A stretch of 64,000 bases of DNA from Candidatus Bathyarchaeota archaeon (GCA_026014735.1 JAOZHT010000001.1:372001-436000), one strand, 5' to 3'. Positions 10,775 to 31,895 are shown, counted from the first letter of the stretch. Numbers and translations are program-made. Notes: generated from the letters alone by a model not told the origin.

Positions 10775-11323
10775 TTACATGTACGCCTTCAATGCTTTGC
10801 TTGCCTGCAGCAGGAAAACCGCAAAAACGGTGATTCCCAGCTCAGGCAGCATGTAGCTTCCATTGTAGACTGCCGAGTAAACGTAGGGGTCTATGTTTGG
10901 CGCATAGATGGGTGCCCAGTACACGACGCCCGAGATGAAACTTAGCATAAACCGCAGTGAAACAGCCACGGCGGCTCCGAGCGCGGGGTACTTTGGGAAG
11001 AAGCCAGCCAAGCCCAAGACGCCGAATGCAAGGGGATAATCCAGCAGCACCTGCACGGGGTCGATTGCATAGGGCAACAGGGCGAATTGGATAAGGCCGT
11101 AGATGACGGCGGTGACGACTCCTACTTTGGGTCCTCTGCGCAGCGAGAGCCAAATGATGGGCACCATCGACGCCAACGTTATGGAGCCACCCTGCGGCAT
11201 CACGTAGACCACTATGGTGCTAAGCGCCGTAGCCAACGCGGTGAAGATTGCGGCTTCAGCTAAAACTTTAGGGTTTCTAAAGGAATTTGGGTTCTTATAT
11301 TCACTTTTATACGGTGTGTCCAC
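10775..11323 (-). CDS. thiT: ThiT-like thiamine transporter (ECF S component)
   Basis: 182 residues with six predicted membrane helices, the standard size of ThiT. Family signatures are visible: an N-terminal EAAIFTALATALS helix, VPIIWLSLRRGPKVG after helix 2, and FISGVVYWAPIYAPN followed by YVYSAVYNGSYMLPE, the thiamine-pocket region. The start is GTG at 11323, directly after a TPP riboswitch whose conserved GGAGGG serves as the ribosome-binding site. No ECF ATPase or T component is in the window, so shared ECF modules elsewhere or solo transport must be assumed. Confidence 0.88.
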   Translation of the reverse strand: MDTPYKSEYKNPNSFRNPKVLAEAAIFTALATALSTIVVYVMPQGGSITLASMVPIIWLSLRRGPKVGVVTAVIYGLIQFALLPYAIDPVQVLLDYPLAFGVLGLAGFFPKYPALGAAVAVSLRFMLSFISGVVYWAPIYAPNIDPYVYSAVYNGSYMLPELGITVFAVFLLQASKALKAYM

Positions 11324-11422
11324 TTGTGTTTCCCTCCGCCAGTATTACCTGGTTCAGGTTCGTCGGGTCGACAGAAGGTACTGTCCTCTCAGCCGGATCA
11401 TTCACCAGCTCCCCAAGAACTA
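11324..11422 (-). promoter_or_regulatory. TPP (THI-box) riboswitch
   Basis: Read on the minus strand the aptamer consensus is nearly complete: GGGGAGC, CGGCTGAGAGGA, GACCCGACGAACCTGA, CAGGTAATACTGGCGGAGGG. The closing helix can form between CTTG near 11417 and CAAG next to the start codon. The conserved 3' segment GGAGGG lies 8 nt from the GTG start of thiT, so it doubles as the Shine-Dalgarno sequence. Thiamine pyrophosphate binding should hide it and stop translation. TPP riboswitches are known but uncommon in archaea. Confidence 0.93.
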
Positions 11423-12009
11423 AACAAACAATGCAGGCTTGAGCCATATAGGTTTTGCGTGATTAAGCGGGCGGGCTTTCAGGGGCAACCTGTCAGAGCT
11501 GACTCAGCCAAGAGCTCCGCAAAAACCAGCTTTTGCTCCCGCTCTGCTCGATTCTATGTTTTCTCCATGCCAACGATGAATATCCTTATACACAAAAACA
11601 CCGAAAAACAGCACACTCGGCGTCAATAGGGTTTTGTGGCTACAAACGGAGGCACCCGACGACAAAAGGCGTCTGCTCTTGCCAGCCCCATTTTTTGTAT
11701 AGTTGTTGTTGTGGGGGATCCCTCTTTATTCAACAACAACCCGCGGACTGAGCAAATCAATGCTTTTTGGCAGCAGGCGCTGGGGCCTATTGCAGGCTGG
11801 TTGTGCAATCAGCCACAAGCAGAACAGCACCCAATTATGGCGCTTCAAGCCGATTCTGCAAGAACCTTGGCTCTTTTGACTGTTAACGGTCCTGCAAAAA
11901 CATTACCGACAACGAGGCGCCTCCAACGTAGTTGCCCGCTGAGTTTTTCGGTTTTCCGACTCTATTACGCTGTTCCATTAGAGGCATAATGGGGTGATGT
12001 TGAAAAGGG
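11423..12009. other. Gene-free spacer between the TPP riboswitch and the OLD island
   Basis: I see no convincing coding sequence. It should contain the minus-strand promoter of the thiT transcript just above the riboswitch, and it holds dispersed repeat copy 2. Plus-strand open frames run across the repeat and lack domains or ribosome-binding sites. Confidence 0.5.
11701..11826 (+). repeat. Dispersed hairpin repeat, copy 2
   Basis: Begins AGTTGTTGTTGTGGGGGATC; GTTGTTGTTG at 11702-11711 is a perfect inverted match of CAACAACAAC at 11731-11740, giving a 10-bp stem. It continues with AATGCTTTTTGGC, ATTGCAGGCTGGTTGTGCAA and CAGCCACAAGCAGAACA. GGCTGGTTGTG and the nearby CAGCC can pair as a second small stem. 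Confidence 0.8.
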
Positions 12010-14108: not shown

Positions 14109-14236
14109 TGGTGCTACGGGCAGGATTCGAACCTGCGAACCCCTGCGGGAAAGGATATCCCATCCGTGGGGCCAGACCTGCCGGCCAAACGTTGATCTTG
14201 AGTCCTTCACCTTTGACCTGGCTTGGTTACCGTAGC
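14109..14236 (-). tRNA. tRNA-Leu(CAA) with a 40-nt anticodon-loop intron
   Basis: Acceptor strands GCTACGG (5' end at 14236) and CCGTAGC (14119-14113) pair perfectly, and the CCA is encoded (14111-14109). The D arm reads ACCAAGCCAGGTCAAAGGT, typical of class II leucine tRNA. The anticodon stem AAGGA/TCCTT encloses CTCAAGA with anticodon CAA (14200-14198). A long variable arm (CCCGCAGGGG) precedes the T arm GCAGG-TTCGAAT-CCTGC. The intron spans about 14157-14196, at the canonical position after base 37, and should form a bulge-helix-bulge. Confidence 0.93.
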
Positions 14237-21132: not shown

Positions 21133-24100
21133 ATGGCATCGGAAGAATTAATCCATAAAGTAGTAGATGAAATCTCATTCGGACTCATCTCACCAAAAGA
21201 TCTGCGTAAACAATCCGTCGTGGAAGTGCAAACCCCCGATACATACGACGAAGACGGCGCCCCCATCACCGCTGGCCTCATGGATGGACGATTAGGCACT
21301 CTTGAGCCGCGTCAACGCTGCAAAACCTGCGGCAACACCGCCATCAGATGCCCCGGACACTTCGGACACATCGAACTCGCCGTTCCCATCGTACACATTG
21401 AATTCACCAAAATCATCTTTGACATGCTTAAATCCACCTGCCGCACCTGCGGACGAATCCTGCTCAGCGAAGACGCAGCTAAAAAGGCTCGCCAGCGCAT
21501 TGAACGCTTCAATGAACTTTTGGGCAACATACCTGACGAAGTCTACAAGGAAATTATGACTGACATCAAAGCTAAACAGTGCCCCTACTGCGCTGCGCCC
21601 CAATTCAAAATCACCTTCGAGAAGCCAACTAAATTCATCGAGCAAACCGAAGCAGGCTCTGAGCCGCTTACCCCCAGCATGATCCGTGAAAGGCTCGAGC
21701 GTATCTCAGATGAGGACCTTGAAGTTTTAGGTTTCAACCCCAAAGTCGCCCGCCCCGAATGGATGGTTCTTCAGGTGCTGCCTGTGCCGCCAGTTTATGT
21801 GCGTCCATCCATCACATTGGAATCCGGCATCCGCAGCGAAGACGACTTAACCCACAAACTCGTGGACATCATCCGCATTAACCAGCGCCTCAAAGAAAAC
21901 ATGGAGGCAGGCGCCCCCACACTCATCATCCAAGACCTCAGCGAACTGCTGCAGTACCACGTTACCACCTACTTTAACAACGAAGCCTCCGGTATTCCGC
22001 CGGCACGCCACCGCAGCGGGCGCGCACTCAAAACCCTCAGCCAGCGTCTGAAGGGCAAAGAGGGCAGGTTCCGAAGCAACCTCAGCGGCAAACGCGTTGA
22101 CTTCTCCGCACGCACCGTCATCTCGCCCGACCCTAACCTTGACATTAACGAAGTCGGTGTCCCCCGCGACGTCGCCATGCGCCTCAGCGTTCCAGAGAAA
22201 GTTACTGCCTGGAACATCGAGGAGATGAAGCGGCTTGTGGTAAACGGGCCCGAACAGTACCCTGGCGCACTCTACATCATCCGCCCAGACGGCAAACGCA
22301 TCCGCCTCGAATTCGTCGTGGACCGCACAAAAATCGCGGAAGCAGTAGAATTGGGCTTTGTGGTTGAACGCCACCTCAAAAACGGCGACATAGCAATCTT
22401 TAACCGGCAGCCCTCGCTTCACCGCATGTCCATCATGGCTCACTACGTCAGAGTTTTGCCCTACAAGACTTTCCGTATGCACCTCTGTGTCTGCCCACCC
22501 TACAACGCAGACTTCGACGGCGACGAAATGAACCTCCACGTGCCCCAAAGTGAAGAAGCCCGAACAGAATCGCTTCTGCTTATGCAGGTGCAGGACCAAA
22601 TTCTCTCGCCCAGATTCGGCGGACCCATCATCGGCGCCATCAGAGACTTCATCACAAGCGCCTATTACTTCACCAAACGAGGCAACTACCTGACCCGCGG
22701 CCAAGTTGACCGTATCTTAACCACCACTAACTTCACCGGCGATTTACCTGAGCCTGAAATCAAAGAGCCAGTTCCCCTCTGGTCAGGCAAACAAATCTTC
22801 AGCCTCTTCCTACCCAAAACACTAAACTACATCCTGAAAGCCAACATCTGTCAAGGCTGCACTAAATGCGAAGAAGAACTCTGCAAATTCGATGCCTACG
22901 TGGTCGTCAGAAACGGGCAACTCGTCAGCGGCATCATCGACCGCCGAAGCATCGGCTCTGAACAATCTGAAAGTTTGCTTCACAGAATCATCAAAGACTA
23001 CGGCACACAGGCAGGCCGAGAATTCCTCAACAACATCACCCACATGCTTAAAACCTTCATTTCGCTACGCGGCTTCAGCTACACCTACGAGCAACTGGTA
23101 CTTTCGCCCCGCGCCCGCAGCCGAATGGCAAAAACTATGGAGCGCACCCAAAAGAAAATCGACGAACACATCGTTAACTTCCAAAACGGCACTCTTCCGC
23201 GTCTTCCTGGCCAAACCATGGAGGAATCTTTCGAAATCTATGTCATGCATGAGTTATCGATTGCCCGAGACGAATCAGGCAAGATTGCAGACGACGACTT
23301 CACGCTGGAGAACGCGGGCATCGTTATGACCCGAACCGGCGCGAGAGGCAGCAGCCTCAACATCGGCCAGATGGCGGCTTGTGTCGGTCAACAGTCAGTC
23401 CGAGGCAAACGTATCCTGAGAGGCTACGCGAACCGTGCGTTGCCCCACTTTAAACCCAACGATCCCCTGCCACGGGCCAGAGGCTTTGTCTACAACAGTT
23501 ACCAGACGGGTCTGGATGCAATCGAGTTCTTCTTCCACGCTATGGGTGGCAGAGAAGGTCTCGTCGACACAGCCGTCCGCACCCAGCAGAGCGGTTACAT
23601 GCAGCGCCGCCTCATCAACGCACTCGAGCACATCAGATTAGAATACGACTCAACAGTCCGCGACAGCGCCGGCGACATCATCCAGTTCCGCTACGGCGAA
23701 GACGGCGTGGACCCAGCAAAAAGCGACCACGGCAAAGCAGTCAACGTCAGCCGACTCATCGACCAGGTCCGTCTTGGCGAAGAGAAAGGCGCTGAACCAG
23801 CCTCCACAGACTTCATCAAGAAGCAGCTTAAAAGCGTCGAGGAACAGATCACCCCGATTCTTCTAGCACAGCTTAAACAGAACTTCAACAAAACCAAACT
23901 CAGCGAGAAAGCAGTGGAGAAAGCCGTCACCATAACCGCCCAGCAGTACAAACGTGCCTTGATGGAGCCAGGCGAAGCAGTCGGCATAGTCGCAGCGCAG
24001 TCAATCGGGGAACCCGGTACACAGATGACTCTTAGAACCTTCCACTATGCAGGTGTCAAAGAACAAAACGTCACCTTAGGCTTGCCGCGGCTCATCGAAA

Positions 24101-24969
24101 TCGTGGATGCACGCAGAATCCCATCTACCCCCATTCAGACCATCTATCTGATGGGTGAACACGGCAAGAGCAAAGAAGCCGCAGTTGAAGTTGCACGCCA
24201 CATCATCTACACATCCGTCGAGAACCTGGCTTCAGCTATCTATGAGGACCCTGTACGCGAGGAAATCATCATTGAACTTAACAAGCAGATGATGGCTGAC
24301 CGCAACATCACCATGGAAGAACTCCAGAATCGGCTTGAGCTGCAGAACGCCACCGTCACAGTCACCGACACCACCGTGGAAATCAAGCCCAAGAAGGCTG
24401 AGCAGATAAAACGTATGCTGACAAAGATCCCCGGATTCCAAGTTAAAGGTGTGCCAGACATTAAACGTGTCCTAGTCACTGAGGAAAGCGGCGAATGGGT
24501 CATCCGAACCGACGGCTCCAACCTTGCAAAGGTGCTGGAGGTCGAAGGAGTCGACACCTCACGCACAACCACCAACAACATCCACGAAATCGCCAAGACA
24601 TTGGGCGTTGAAGCCTCACGTAACGCATTAGTCCACGAAGCCAAGGGTGTCCTGGAAGACCAGGGCCTTGACGTTGACGTCCGCCACGTTATGCTCGTTG
24701 CAGACATGATGACTACCACTGGAGATGTGCAGCAGATCGGTCGCCATGGCATCAGCGGCAAAAAAGCCAGTGTGCTCGCGCGCGCCGCATTCGAAATTAC
24801 CGTTCCTAACATCGTTGAAGCCGCCGTGAAAGGTGAAAGTGATCCTTTGGCTGGCGTGACAGAAAACGTTATAGTTGGGCAATCCATACCAATCGGGACG
24901 GGCTTAGTTGAACTGTACATGTCAACGTTTGAGCGTCAAAGTAAAGATGGAGGAAAAACAGAAGCATGA
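21133..24969 (+). CDS. rpoA: DNA-directed RNA polymerase subunit A, fused A'-A''
   Basis: 1278 residues containing both halves that are separate genes (A1 and A2) in many archaea. The N-terminus has the clamp zinc motifs CKTCGNTAIRCPGHFGH and CRTCG...CPYC. The catalytic loop NADFDGDEMN, which binds the active-site magnesium, is at about residue 458. The A'' part begins near residue 920 (ALMEPGEAVGIVAAQSIGEP) and includes the trigger-loop region GTQMTLRTFHYAG and the C-terminal KASVLARAAFEIT. The last codons overlap the L30e start by 4 bp. Fused A subunits are known in Thaumarchaeota-like and Korarchaeota-like lineages. Confidence 0.98.
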   Translation: MASEELIHKVVDEISFGLISPKDLRKQSVVEVQTPDTYDEDGAPITAGLMDGRLGTLEPRQRCKTCGNTAIRCPGHFGHIELAVPIVHIEFTKIIFDMLKSTCRTCGRILLSEDAAKKARQRIERFNELLGNIPDEVYKEIMTDIKAKQCPYCAAPQFKITFEKPTKFIEQTEAGSEPLTPSMIRERLERISDEDLEVLGFNPKVARPEWMVLQVLPVPPVYVRPSITLESGIRSEDDLTHKLVDIIRINQRLKENMEAGAPTLIIQDLSELLQYHVTTYFNNEASGIPPARHRSGRALKTLSQRLKGKEGRFRSNLSGKRVDFSARTVISPDPNLDINEVGVPRDVAMRLSVPEKVTAWNIEEMKRLVVNGPEQYPGALYIIRPDGKRIRLEFVVDRTKIAEAVELGFVVERHLKNGDIAIFNRQPSLHRMSIMAHYVRVLPYKTFRMHLCVCPPYNADFDGDEMNLHVPQSEEARTESLLLMQVQDQILSPRFGGPIIGAIRDFITSAYYFTKRGNYLTRGQVDRILTTTNFTGDLPEPEIKEPVPLWSGKQIFSLFLPKTLNYILKANICQGCTKCEEELCKFDAYVVVRNGQLVSGIIDRRSIGSEQSESLLHRIIKDYGTQAGREFLNNITHMLKTFISLRGFSYTYEQLVLSPRARSRMAKTMERTQKKIDEHIVNFQNGTLPRLPGQTMEESFEIYVMHELSIARDESGKIADDDFTLENAGIVMTRTGARGSSLNIGQMAACVGQQSVRGKRILRGYANRALPHFKPNDPLPRARGFVYNSYQTGLDAIEFFFHAMGGREGLVDTAVRTQQSGYMQRRLINALEHIRLEYDSTVRDSAGDIIQFRYGEDGVDPAKSDHGKAVNVSRLIDQVRLGEEKGAEPASTDFIKKQLKSVEEQITPILLAQLKQNFNKTKLSEKAVEKAVTITAQQYKRALMEPGEAVGIVAAQSIGEPGTQMTLRTFHYAGVKEQNVTLGLPRLIEIVDARRIPSTPIQTIYLMGEHGKSKEAAVEVARHIIYTSVENLASAIYEDPVREEIIIELNKQMMADRNITMEELQNRLELQNATVTVTDTTVEIKPKKAEQIKRMLTKIPGFQVKGVPDIKRVLVTEESGEWVIRTDGSNLAKVLEVEGVDTSRTTTNNIHEIAKTLGVEASRNALVHEAKGVLEDQGLDVDVRHVMLVADMMTTTGDVQQIGRHGISGKKASVLARAAFEITVPNIVEAAVKGESDPLAGVTENVIVGQSIPIGTGLVELYMSTFERQSKDGGKTEA

Positions 24970-28083: not shown

Positions 28084-28314
28084 TTAAACTTGCTTTTTGG
28101 GGCTCTGATGCGTCGTCTGCGTATGCAGCGTTAACTCTTCTCGGGTGTTGAAGGCTTTGCCGCATAGTGAGCAGCTAAACCTTGTGGGTATGGGGATGGT
28201 TTCGGGTGGCGGCGGGCTTGGCGGCGGCTCAGGAGGCATCGGCGGCAGATTGTCCGATACGTTTTCTATGGGTTCGATTGGCCTTTTGGGGTAGGGATAG
28301 TCGGGTTCACTCAT
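28084..28314 (-). CDS. C2H2 zinc-finger mini-protein with Pro-rich linker
   Basis: 76 residues from the ATG at 28314. A Pro-rich, flexible N-terminal half (PPMPPEPPPSPPPPETIP) precedes one C2H2 finger, FSCSLCGKAFNTREELTLH followed by TQTTH, with Cys-X2-Cys and His-X4-His ligands and the hydrophobic core residues of classical fingers. Likely a small nucleic-acid- or protein-binding factor. Confidence 0.75.
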   Translation of the reverse strand: MSEPDYPYPKRPIEPIENVSDNLPPMPPEPPPSPPPPETIPIPTRFSCSLCGKAFNTREELTLHTQTTHQSPKKQV

Positions 28315-28528
28315 TTTTTTTACCACGATAGGGGAGAATGGGGGTTTTGATAAGGCTTTGTGGGTGCTCCGCGGCGGCTACATCGCGATGCATTTTGCCT
28401 GCGGAATGTGTAAACCCTCCAGTATTCAGGTTTCTTGTTGCCTGAATTTCGCTTCGGTTTTGCCTAATTAGTTAAATAAGAGAGGCTTGCACTATCTATT
28501 TTCCAACAGTAGAGGCAAAGTATCAGTT

Positions 28529-30448
28529 ATGCTTATTCGTGAACTTATCGTTGAAAACTTCATGAGCTACGAATACGCCCGCGTCCCCTTCAAACAGGGC
28601 GTTAACGTAATCGGGGGACCCAACGGCGCAGGCAAATCCAGCCTGCTGCTAGCCATATCTGTTGGGCTAGGGCAAACCTACACTGAACGCAGCCGCAAAC
28701 TCAGCGACCTCATCCGCTGGGGCCAAGACCAAGCGCGGGTAACCTTGATTCTGGATAACAGCAAACAGGGCAGCCGACGCCCCGAACCCAAATACCAAAA
28801 AGACCAGCTTTTCCTCACCCGCATCCTACGACGCGACGGCAAATACTGGTTTGAACTCGAAAACCGCGCCGCCTCAAAACAGGACGTTGAGCGGCTGCTG
28901 GGCAAATTCGGCGTGGACCCCGACAACATGCTCATCATCATGCATCAGAACATGGTGGAGCAGTTCAGCGTACAAAGCAACATCGACAAGCTCCGCATGG
29001 TCGAGGACGCCGTGGGGCTTGCGCCCTTCCGCAACAACGTGGTGGAAGCCAAAACCAAACTCACCCGCATCCTCAGCCAAGAAGAATCCGTGGGCAAACT
29101 GCTTGAGCAAGCCGAGCAAACCCTTCATTACTGGCGGGAGCAGTACGAGCGGTTCCAGGAGAAAAAGCAGCTGCAGCTCAAACGGAGCTTTCTGGATCGC
29201 GAGTTGCTGTGGGCGGAGGTGGAGCGCCGCGAGGACATCGCAAAGAGCCTGCAGGCAAGCTTTAACAAGGCTCAGCAGGCACTGGGCAAAATCGAGGATC
29301 AACGCCAAGCCATAATCGGCGAACTCGACGGGCAAACCGAGGAGCAGCAGACGCTGAAAACCCAAATCAGGGGCGTGTTTGATGAGCGATTGGAGCTTGA
29401 ACGCAAAATCGCCCAGAACCAAAGCAGCCTCAGCCTCATAGAGCAGCTGCTAAGTGAAGTGCAGCTCATTGAATCCCTCGCTGACCCTGGCCAGTTTAAG
29501 CTGCTGCGCGCCGAGAGCCTGCGTGAGATGCTGGATGTATCCCAGCAGCAAATAAAGAAAGCCGCCGCGCAAGTTGAGGTTAACCAGAAAAAGCAGCTTA
29601 GCCTCGAGAATTCCGCTGACAAAATCGGCACCGCAGCGCTGGATAGGCGCGTTAATTTGGCGCTTTTGGATTTTAAGCGTGACCGCGCCGTCAACGAGCA
29701 GAAAGCCGTCGAGAAGTCGCTGCGTGAAGCCCAGGAGAACCTCGCTGAGGCAGTGGCTAAAGCCCAACTGAGCGGTGAACGCATCGCCGTGCTTAAATCC
29801 CCCAGCGAAATCCAAGAGGAGATGGGGCAAACCAACGGGCACCTCGCCGCGCTTGCCTCGGTTTCGGAGGAGATTGAGCGGCAATACGAATCCTACTCAA
29901 AACTTTACCTTGAACTAAAAGAGAAGGCGCAGCTGGTGGCTGAGAACAGAGAGAAAACCCTACAGGAAGTCAAGACGCGGCTGCAGGCTTGGCGAAGCGT
30001 CATCGAGGAGTTGCTTGACCGCGTTAACATAGAGTACCAGCGTATCATGAGCCAAACCCTCGCCACCGGGGAAGTGCAGCTTTCCAACAGAGAGGAAATC
30101 GAAACGGCGGGGCTGGAGATTTATGTGGGCTTTAAAGGCAGCAAACCCGTTGCTTTGGATGCTTACACGCAGAGCGGCGGCGAACGCACCACCGCAACCA
30201 TGGGCTTTCTGCTGGCGCTTCAGCAGCATGTCCGCAGCCCCTTCCGCGCCGTCGACGAATACGACATCCACATGGACCCCAAAAACCGCGAAATGATCGC
30301 CAAAGTGCTTGTCGCCATAATTAAGGATGCGGCGGCGCAGTACGTGGTGATTACGCCCAGCCAAATTACCTTTGCCCAAAAGGACGCCAACGTCATCACC
30401 GTGCAGAACCTTGAGGGAAAAAGCCTCGTGCGTGAGGTCGCTGCCTGA
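28529..30448 (+). CDS. SMC5/6-like short-armed SMC ATPase
   Basis: 639 residues from the ATG at 28529 (upstream in-frame codons look like leader). The head has IRELIVENFMSYEYARV, Walker A GPNGAGKSS (about 30-38), then LIRWGQDQARVTLILDN and MLIIMHQNMVEQFSV, all matching the Smc6/Smc5 N-terminal head pattern. About 175-500 is coiled coil, with no obvious globular hinge. The C-terminal head has GEVQLS, an ABC signature QSGGERTTATMGFLLALQ (about 548) and Walker B/D-loop FRAVDEYDIHMDPKNR (about 572), very close to Smc5/6 (SGGERS...FR-DE-D---MD--NR). The arms are much shorter than in eukaryotic Smc5/6 (about 1000-1100 residues). First gene of a three-gene operon. Confidence 0.85.
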   Translation: MLIRELIVENFMSYEYARVPFKQGVNVIGGPNGAGKSSLLLAISVGLGQTYTERSRKLSDLIRWGQDQARVTLILDNSKQGSRRPEPKYQKDQLFLTRILRRDGKYWFELENRAASKQDVERLLGKFGVDPDNMLIIMHQNMVEQFSVQSNIDKLRMVEDAVGLAPFRNNVVEAKTKLTRILSQEESVGKLLEQAEQTLHYWREQYERFQEKKQLQLKRSFLDRELLWAEVERREDIAKSLQASFNKAQQALGKIEDQRQAIIGELDGQTEEQQTLKTQIRGVFDERLELERKIAQNQSSLSLIEQLLSEVQLIESLADPGQFKLLRAESLREMLDVSQQQIKKAAAQVEVNQKKQLSLENSADKIGTAALDRRVNLALLDFKRDRAVNEQKAVEKSLREAQENLAEAVAKAQLSGERIAVLKSPSEIQEEMGQTNGHLAALASVSEEIERQYESYSKLYLELKEKAQLVAENREKTLQEVKTRLQAWRSVIEELLDRVNIEYQRIMSQTLATGEVQLSNREEIETAGLEIYVGFKGSKPVALDAYTQSGGERTTATMGFLLALQQHVRSPFRAVDEYDIHMDPKNREMIAKVLVAIIKDAAAQYVVITPSQITFAQKDANVITVQNLEGKSLVREVAA

Positions 30449-31266
30449 TGCCGCAGGAAATAGCGGAGAAGCGGCTGGGCAAGGAGCGGCTGCAGCGCAT
30501 CATCGAAATGTGCTTGGCTATCGAGAGCCGCCAAGTTGACCCCTTCACGCTGGAAGTCGATGAGATAGTTAAGGTGGTGCATGCGTATTTTCCGCATTGG
30601 CAGCACCCCGACGAACTGCGTCTCGACGCCGAAGCCCTCCATCACCTCGCCACCGTCATCAAAATGCAGAGCGAATGGGTCAAACAGCGCTCCTCCGCCC
30701 TATACACTGACCCTTTTCTTATGGAGGAGAAAATCCGCCAAACCAGCCGCGAGGCAATGGTGGATGTTTTCCTGTCAGCTTGGTCGCCGATTGTGGATTC
30801 CGAGCAGCTTAGCCTCCACGCCCTCGCGCAGGGACTGCTCTACTGGGATGCGCTGCCGCCGCTGGGCGACCGCTGGAAAAGCATCGATGTCTCCGCGGTG
30901 GAGATGGGCTCTGTGAGCCGCGAGGAGATGGTGAAAGCCCGCGTTTTGGGCGACCGCGAATTCGGCGAGGAACTCACCTGCTACTGGCAGGAACTTAAAG
31001 CCAAAGCAGCGCCAAACGGCAAAATACCGTATTGGGACTTCATCGGCGCCGACACCTACGAGCAAACCGTGCAACGCGCATTCCTCACAGCGTTTCTAGT
31101 CACTTACGGCTACGCCACCTTGGAAATCGACCGCCTCGAAGAAACCGTAGCCATCATCCCCTACGAGGAGCCCCATGAAGCCGCGCTAACAGTGCAGTCC
31201 ACATCGGTGCCCATCGCGGTGCCATTTGAGGACTGGCAAAAATGGAAGGAAGGCAAACAGCCATGA
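30448..31266 (+). CDS. Kleisin-like partner of the SMC ATPase
   Basis: 272 residues; the start overlaps the SMC stop (TGATG). The N-terminal region has the ScpA/kleisin layout. A segment QVDPFTLEVDEIVKVVHAYF precedes LRLDAEALHHLATVIKMQSE and WVKQRSSAL, comparable with the helical SMC-neck-binding domain and its LxxKS signature. A middle linker follows, and the C-terminus (FLTAFLVTYGYATLEIDRL...VAIIPYEEP) could be the winged helix that binds the second SMC head. Assignment rests on pattern and gene order, not on a confident family match. It is probably the bridge between SMC heads and the KITE subunit. Confidence 0.6.
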   Translation: MPQEIAEKRLGKERLQRIIEMCLAIESRQVDPFTLEVDEIVKVVHAYFPHWQHPDELRLDAEALHHLATVIKMQSEWVKQRSSALYTDPFLMEEKIRQTSREAMVDVFLSAWSPIVDSEQLSLHALAQGLLYWDALPPLGDRWKSIDVSAVEMGSVSREEMVKARVLGDREFGEELTCYWQELKAKAAPNGKIPYWDFIGADTYEQTVQRAFLTAFLVTYGYATLEIDRLEETVAIIPYEEPHEAALTVQSTSVPIAVPFEDWQKWKEGKQP

Positions 31267-31895
31267 GTCAACGCAAAAAAGGCATATACGCAGGCAAAAT
31301 CAAAAAAGCAGCGCAGCTGCTCCTCTACAAACGCCACGCTAAACCCGGCGTAAAAGGCTGGGAGCTACATAAGGCAGTGGGCGCGGATTACCCTAAGGTT
31401 CTTGAGGTGCTGGAGGATTATTTGGCGCCTCTGGATTTGCAGGTTAAAACCGTGTTTGAGGAAGAAAAAACCCCCGATAAGCCCAGCCTTGAGGAGCTGG
31501 ATAAGGCACGGTTTTTTGTGGTGCTGCGTGACGTAGCTACCAAGGATAAGCTGATGGGCTGGCGCATCGACGATTTGGCAGGTTTAGCGGTGACAATCAG
31601 CTTTATCATCAGCAAAAAAGGGCAGGTGCCCCGCAAAGACGTCGAGGCATTGCTCTCCGAGAAGATCCCGAACTGGAAAGTGGGCCTCAACCTTGACCGG
31701 TACATCCGCAGCGGCTACTTATCGCAGGATGAGCATGGGATGCTGTTTCTGGATTGGCGCACCCGCGCGGAAGTGGATGAGAAGAAGCTGATTGAGATGC
31801 TGCTGAGCGCGGAGAAACAGAAAGCGCTCGCAGAGTTGCCTGTGCAGGATAGCGAGGCTGAAGAGGCTTCTGGCACAGAAGAAGATAAAGAATAA
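31263..31895 (+). CDS. KITE/MAGE-like winged-helix subunit of the SMC complex
   Basis: 210 residues; the ATG at 31263 overlaps the kleisin stop by 4 bp. Two winged-helix units are suggested: WELHKAVGADYPKVLEVLED and an extended second one, LAVTISFIISKKGQVPRKDVEALLSEKIP. The segment LDRYIRSGYLSQDEHGMLFL and then DWRTRAEVDEKKLIEMLL parallels the end of MAGE/Nse3 domains, where a YL-containing hairpin leads into a WGPRA-E helix. KITE proteins (ScpB, MukE, Nse1, Nse3) bind kleisins. The C-terminus is an acidic tail (EAEEASGTEEDKE). A decayed copy of its 3' end lies at 33017-33199. Confidence 0.6.
   Translation: MSQRKKGIYAGKIKKAAQLLLYKRHAKPGVKGWELHKAVGADYPKVLEVLEDYLAPLDLQVKTVFEEEKTPDKPSLEELDKARFFVVLRDVATKDKLMGWRIDDLAGLAVTISFIISKKGQVPRKDVEALLSEKIPNWKVGLNLDRYIRSGYLSQDEHGMLFLDWRTRAEVDEKKLIEMLLSAEKQKALAELPVQDSEAEEASGTEEDKE

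Follow-up and report, generated by a model that had tools for sequence, protein, structure and literature searches.

A window of 64,000 nucleotides from a Candidatus Bathyarchaeota archaeon (GCA_026014735.1, JAOZHT010000001.1:372001-436000; "window" means this whole stretch, and positions are counted from its first letter) carries three overlapping genes on the plus strand, called here genes 1 to 3. They very likely encode a minimal Smc5/6-type complex made of a structural maintenance of chromosomes (SMC) ATPase, a kleisin and a KITE protein (Table 1). The source genome has 2.9 Mb and is 99% complete, and the named sequences nearest to gene 1 come from Bathyarchaeia metagenome-assembled genomes (MAGs). 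The open reading frame of gene 3 has 217 amino acids (aa) when counted from its first ATG, as in Table 1; the ATG at position 31263, which is likely the true start, gives an overlap of 4 bp with gene 2. The overlaps of 1 bp and 4 bp reported in the first-pass annotation, a reading of this DNA from its sequence, agree with these coordinates. All three are genuine, conserved genes, and the analysis establishes the identity of the subunits and their co-inheritance.

Table 1. Coordinates of the three genes and of their domains and motifs in the window.
Feature	Position	Strand	Basis
Gene 1, hinge-less Smc5/6-type SMC ATPase (putative), 639 aa (P0001)	28529..30448	+	PDB searches, head tree
Walker A GPNGAGKSS, residues 30-38	28616..28642	+	sequence; position across 39 relatives
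Coiled-coil arms and apex without detectable hinge (predicted), ~residues 235-435	29231..29833	+	composition, variability, family searches
ABC signature SGGER within TQSGGER (~residue 547), as in Smc5	30173..30187	+	sequence, alignments
Walker B FRAVDEYDIHMDPKNR, residue 572, Smc5/6 type	30242..30289	+	alignments
Gene 2, Nse4-like kleisin, 272 aa (P0002)	30448..31266	+	Pfam, PDB profile, Foldseek
N-terminal helical domain, long helix; helices 2-26, 37-50, 54-86, 89-98	30451..30741	+	AlphaFold2
C-terminal winged-helix domain, ~residues 172-238	30961..31161	+	AlphaFold2, Foldseek
Gene 3, KITE, tandem winged helices, Nse3/MAGE- and Nse1-like (P0003)	31242..31895	+	Foldseek, Pfam of relatives
First winged-helix domain, ~residues 10-95	31269..31526	+	AlphaFold2
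Second winged-helix domain and MAGE-like motif, residues 109-179, ending WRTRAEVD	31566..31778	+	AlphaFold2

The product of gene 1 has Smc5/6-type head sequences at both ends, and all the motifs first quoted for it are present. Its Walker B FRAVDEYDIHMDPKNR and its TQSGGER signature are like those of Smc5/6 (Walker B FRVVDEINQGMD in Smc5 and FRCLDEFDVYMD in Smc6) and unlike the FYILDEVDAHLD of the canonical SMC from the same genome. Among PDB sequences the best matches are Smc5 (5e-28) and Smc6 (3e-26), followed by prokaryotic Smc (1e-22) and, lower down, Smc1 (2e-18), Smc3 (7e-18) and Rad50 (2e-8), so that the best solved structures are those of Smc5/Smc6, above Smc1-4, prokaryotic Smc and Rad50. 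A profile built from 28 gene 1 relatives also ranks Smc6 (7e-51) and Smc5 (2e-48) first. When the genome's own canonical SMC was used as the control query, prokaryotic Smc scored 342 bits, Smc2 172, Smc4 165, Smc3 152 and Smc5 33. Gene 1 scores 102 bits against yeast Smc5 and 96 against Smc6, while head-only Smc5 and Smc6 reach at most 70 bits with each other, a comparison that is suggestive because the queries differ in length. A single SMC of Smc5/6 type was found in the genome.

Phylogeny of the head domains against Smc, Rad50 and Smc5/6, a comparison laid down beforehand, places gene 1 with Smc5/6 and Rad50 outside. The tree (33 sequences, 383 columns, rooted on Rad50) was computed from a set that does not include Smc1-4 or Asgard sequences. 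The short archaeal SMCs join Smc5 and Smc6, apart from canonical SMC and Rad50, with supports of 99.4 in the Shimodaira-Hasegawa-like approximate likelihood ratio test and 100 in ultrafast bootstrap (SH-aLRT/UFBoot 99.4/100). They are monophyletic (98/97) and sister to Smc5 plus Smc6 under the Rad50 rooting, Smc5 and Smc6 themselves being weakly joined (69.5/61). Approximately unbiased (AU) tests rejected the grouping of Smc5/6 with canonical SMC (p = 0.007) and with Rad50 (p = 0.033).

The middle part of the gene 1 protein has a helix-forming composition with few glycines and prolines and is poorly conserved. Neither for P0001 nor for 28 of its relatives does Pfam list an SMC_hinge or zinc-hook family, and no CxxC motif is present in 39 sequences of the gene 1 family, distant families included, whose Walker A-to-signature distance spans 441-563 residues. 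Gene 1 thus appears to code for an SMC with no detectable hinge, and the short coiled arms without evident hinge that had been noticed at the outset are in keeping with its length, its composition, the Pfam result and the lack of CxxC. Its length is also close to that of the model for archaea-specific SMC-related proteins (ASRP, NF045487; coalescin/Sph), which it matches at 49 bits. A protein of that kind, or of the Rad50 type, lying beside two unrelated genes is an extremely unlikely explanation for the locus: the ASRP cut-off is 300 bits, there is no zinc hook, Rad50 falls outside in the head tree, and genes 2 and 3 co-occur with gene 1 and look like a kleisin and a KITE. The source genome has a Rad50 gene separate from gene 1, adjoining a phosphoesterase-like gene whose product looks like Mre11.

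Gene 2 codes for a kleisin whose diagnostic similarity is to the carboxyl terminus of Nse4. Pfam Nse4_C matches P0002 below the cut-off (1.2e-4), and is found in 52 of 55 close relatives (best 1.8e-6) and in 22 members of a mostly distant set of 40 (best 1e-6). A gene 2 profile run against the PDB has Nse4 orthologues in all four top positions, with weak scores (E 0.02-0.3). The AlphaFold2 model has an overall predicted local distance difference test score (pLDDT) of 76 and a predicted template modelling score (pTM) of 0.38, the latter making the relative placement of the domains uncertain. Block pLDDT values are mostly 73-87 in the amino terminus domain (55 for residues 81-90) and mostly 82-91 in the carboxyl terminus domain. 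The top two Foldseek matches of the model are Nse4 from two Smc5/6 structures, and the fold of the carboxyl terminus domain matches the corresponding domains of Nse4, ScpA and Scc1 with TM-scores by target of 0.62-0.76. The protein, whose amino terminus was first described as having a ScpA-like helical pattern, is not especially ScpA-like. The ScpA family (PF02616) is not listed for P0002, and a weak likeness to ScpA is confined to the carboxyl terminus domain.

Gene 3 encodes a tandem winged-helix protein (pLDDT 79), with most blocks of the second domain above 80. Its eight Foldseek matches at E <= 0.001 are all KITE/MAGE proteins, from the MAGE-G1/NSE1 complex, the Nse1-Nse3-Nse4 complex, Wadjet JetB and MAGE-A proteins; MukE comes next. 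MAGE (15 sequences, best 2.8e-4) and SMC_Nse1 (10 sequences, best 1.2e-4) are the two commonest Pfam families among 41 relatives, in all of which W172, R173 and E177 are invariant. The proposed MAGE/Nse3-like winged helix at the end of gene 3 is thereby supported by both the fold search and the families of the relatives, and the fold comparison suggested for genes 2 and 3 with kleisin and KITE proteins returned Nse4 and KITE/MAGE, respectively. When the KITE protein or its alignments served as sequence queries against the PDB, no KITE was retrieved, and ScpB (PF04079) is not listed for P0003, which has no ScpB similarity.

Taken one at a time, the three subunits all lead to a single eukaryotic complex, and the initial proposal of a compact archaeal SMC-kleisin-KITE system nearer to Smc5/6 than to Smc-ScpAB gains from these separate matches of all three genes. 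The source genome has in addition an intact Smc-ScpA-ScpB operon elsewhere, with a 1183-aa SMC gene followed by ScpA-like and ScpB genes; the ScpA is a sub-threshold match that the genome-wide Pfam ScpA search missed. The order SMC-kleisin-KITE is common to both operons. Together with the weak ScpA similarity of the kleisin carboxyl terminus domain and the AU result for gene 1 with canonical SMC (p = 0.057), this order would suit a truncated copy of the canonical operon whose SMC lost the hinge and came to resemble Smc5/6 in its motifs by convergence. Such an origin is very improbable, since Smc5 and Smc6 score above prokaryotic Smc for gene 1, gene 3 has MAGE and Nse1 similarity in place of ScpB, and the best tree opposes it with 99.4/100 support. 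The two operons also differ in that the canonical SMC has hinge matches and a head of another subfamily, and its partners belong to the ScpA and ScpB families.

Several observations weigh against the assignment of the three genes to an Smc5/6-type complex. The AU test narrowly fails to reject archaeal SMC with canonical SMC, and Smc1-4 lie outside the sampling of the tree. The carboxyl terminus domain of gene 2 weakly resembles ScpA (hhalign probability 69%), for which reason a portion of its Nse4 signal may be a general kleisin signal. P0003 is without a significant sequence match, its MAGE and Nse1 scores being obtained through relatives and reaching about 1e-4 at best. The absence of the hinge is deduced from length, composition and family searches and not from an SMC structure, and the interaction of the subunits, the ATPase activity and the binding to DNA are all predicted.

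About 80 loci encode relatives of gene 1 at >=49% identity, and genes 2 and 3 are in place in nearly all of them that are long enough to show these genes. Among 40 distant loci gene 3 is found in 40, and gene 1 directly precedes the kleisin gene on the same strand in most; the three-gene order, which was to be sought in other archaeal genomes, is thus retained in most of these loci. The operon is conserved far beyond chance. In a few lineages gene 1 is displaced from the operon, yet it is found elsewhere in those genomes tested. Of 300 genomes sampled from the phylum, 127 have the kleisin, and all 34 carriers tested have the short SMC. Genomes devoid of the kleisin have no KITE (0/20) and a clear SMC match in a single case (1/20), in a frame of just 438 aa; another kleisin-less genome has a weak SMC match inside a 1180-aa frame. 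All three genes are absent from two single-contig genomes, so some lineages can do without them. A full-length canonical SMC was not detected in 11 of the 34 carriers, several of them >=95% complete. Its true absence from these 11 genomes is likely rather than proven, because no more than 15 candidates were scored in each genome.

An Lhr-type superfamily 2 (SF2) helicase gene is found downstream of the KITE gene, in convergent orientation, in 23 of the 40 distant loci (L119-L158), and it overlaps the operon or lies within ~25 bp of it in 16 distant loci. This association hints at DNA repair. A protein of ~235 aa with no assigned family is encoded in 42 loci (e.g. L124:7002-7697), mostly upstream of the SMC gene and on the opposite strand. 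Both were considered as extra subunits and set aside, as in this window neither adjoins the operon. A relative of the helicase is encoded at another site of the source genome, in which the 235-aa protein gave no match. Gene 1 matches the PADLOC models for the SMC-like defence ATPases mad3 (5e-26) and LmuB (1e-15), and Wadjet likewise has an SMC, a kleisin and a KITE (PMC10586767), features that would fit an SMC-based anti-plasmid or anti-phage defence system of Wadjet or Lamassu type. The probability of this explanation is nevertheless very low: among the conserved neighbours of the operon in ~120 loci neither the Toprim nuclease JetD of Wadjet nor another effector gene was conspicuous, genes 2 and 3 have no convincing match to defence models, and the system is spread over many families, in some of which it provides the sole SMC detected.

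The archaeal operon resembles eukaryotic Smc5/6 in its head motifs, in the Nse4-type carboxyl terminus domain of the kleisin and in the tandem winged-helix KITE with MAGE and Nse1 similarity. It differs by having one SMC in place of Smc5 and Smc6, one KITE gene in place of the distinct Nse1 and Nse3, and an SMC with short arms and no hinge found, whereas the eukaryotic proteins have a hinge and long arms. No counterpart of Nse2, Nse5 or Nse6 stood out among the conserved neighbours, and no genome-wide search was aimed at them. MukBEF and Wadjet JetABC also combine an SMC with a kleisin and a KITE, and JetB and MukE match the fold of gene 3, but the best matches of genes 1 and 2 lie elsewhere.

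The archaeal "SMC5/6-related" SMC proteins were reportedly described by Yoshinaga and Inagaki in 2021, a work that PMC9389158 takes up. A 2025 article by van Hooff et al., said from its title to deal with the archaeal roots of SMC complexes, may already describe the complex, and priority may lie there. As far as the excerpt of PMC9389158 goes, the "SMC5/6-related" archaeal clade groups with SMC5 and SMC6, in agreement with the head tree obtained here, and gene 1 very probably belongs to it. That excerpt treats the SMC alone and mentions no kleisin, KITE, operon or absent hinge. That some archaeal SMCs are Smc5/6-like is published; what stands out here is the full set of three subunits, the apparently absent hinge and the single proteins found where eukaryotes have pairs. 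PMC7055376 makes the case that archaea generally have Smc-ScpA complexes that lack a KITE, and it did not detect smc in Crenarchaeota. The operon described here, which has a KITE, would be a different complex.

The proposed assembly, by analogy with Smc5/6, is a 2:1:2 complex of SMC, kleisin and KITE. The two SMC copies would engage their heads around ATP, with the amino terminus helices of the kleisin bound to one head-neck and its carboxyl terminus winged helix to the other head. In eukaryotic Smc5/6 the heads and necks together with Nse1-3-4 encircle and clamp DNA (PMC9191643). Two KITE copies bound to the middle of the archaeal kleisin might close over DNA in a similar manner, yielding an ATP-dependent clamp. 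Without a hinge the usual ring running from hinge to kleisin cannot close, which favours clamping over long-range loop extrusion; clamping or gripping of DNA, perhaps with contacts between arm tips, is the most likely activity rather than full-length loop extrusion. A role in chromosome maintenance or DNA repair is likely, beside Smc-ScpAB or, in some lineages, in its place.

SMC complexes are explained as rings in which the hinge closes one end and the kleisin the other. With a conserved hinge-less complex of heads, kleisin and KITE, DNA clamping would be uncoupled from the formation of a ring and from loop extrusion. It is conceivable, though on present evidence somewhat doubtful, that the operon is a surviving line of the stock of eukaryotic Smc5/6 from before the doublings of SMC and KITE, in which a hinge-less SMC-kleisin-KITE works on DNA. 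The suggestion that the system is ancestor-like stands in part: the best tree has the archaeal SMC as sister to Smc5 plus Smc6, while the AU test leaves the canonical grouping in place. If true, this line predates the Smc5-Smc6 and Nse1-Nse3 splits. A conserved complex of this kind would also supply a tangible prokaryotic relative for studying where Smc5/6 came from, with one SMC and one KITE against two of each, and would represent a less elaborate version of a machinery investigated chiefly in eukaryotes. Several archaeal families may have no other SMC-kleisin complex, a point of relevance to chromosome organisation in archaea that lack canonical SMC.

Two MAGs have the operon twice, on different contigs (L063/L064 and L021/L024). 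These copies could be paralogues or result from mixed bins; the SMCs of L063 and L064 are 69% identical. In three distant genomes the canonical SMC (L169, L170, L177) has a large insertion right after the GK of the P-loop, starting with Cys and ending with HN before Ser, which looks like an intein in Walker A. Within the window, an 80-aa small protein with a C2H2 zinc finger is encoded divergently to the SMC gene (28084-28326, minus strand), and a sequence identified as an archaeal RNA polymerase subunit gene lies upstream of the operon (21133-24969). Farther away on the minus strand are an Rfam tRNA of 125 bases that was missed by ARAGORN (14112-14236), and for these two reasons may contain an intron, and a thiamine pyrophosphate (TPP) riboswitch scoring above the gathering threshold (11314-11425).

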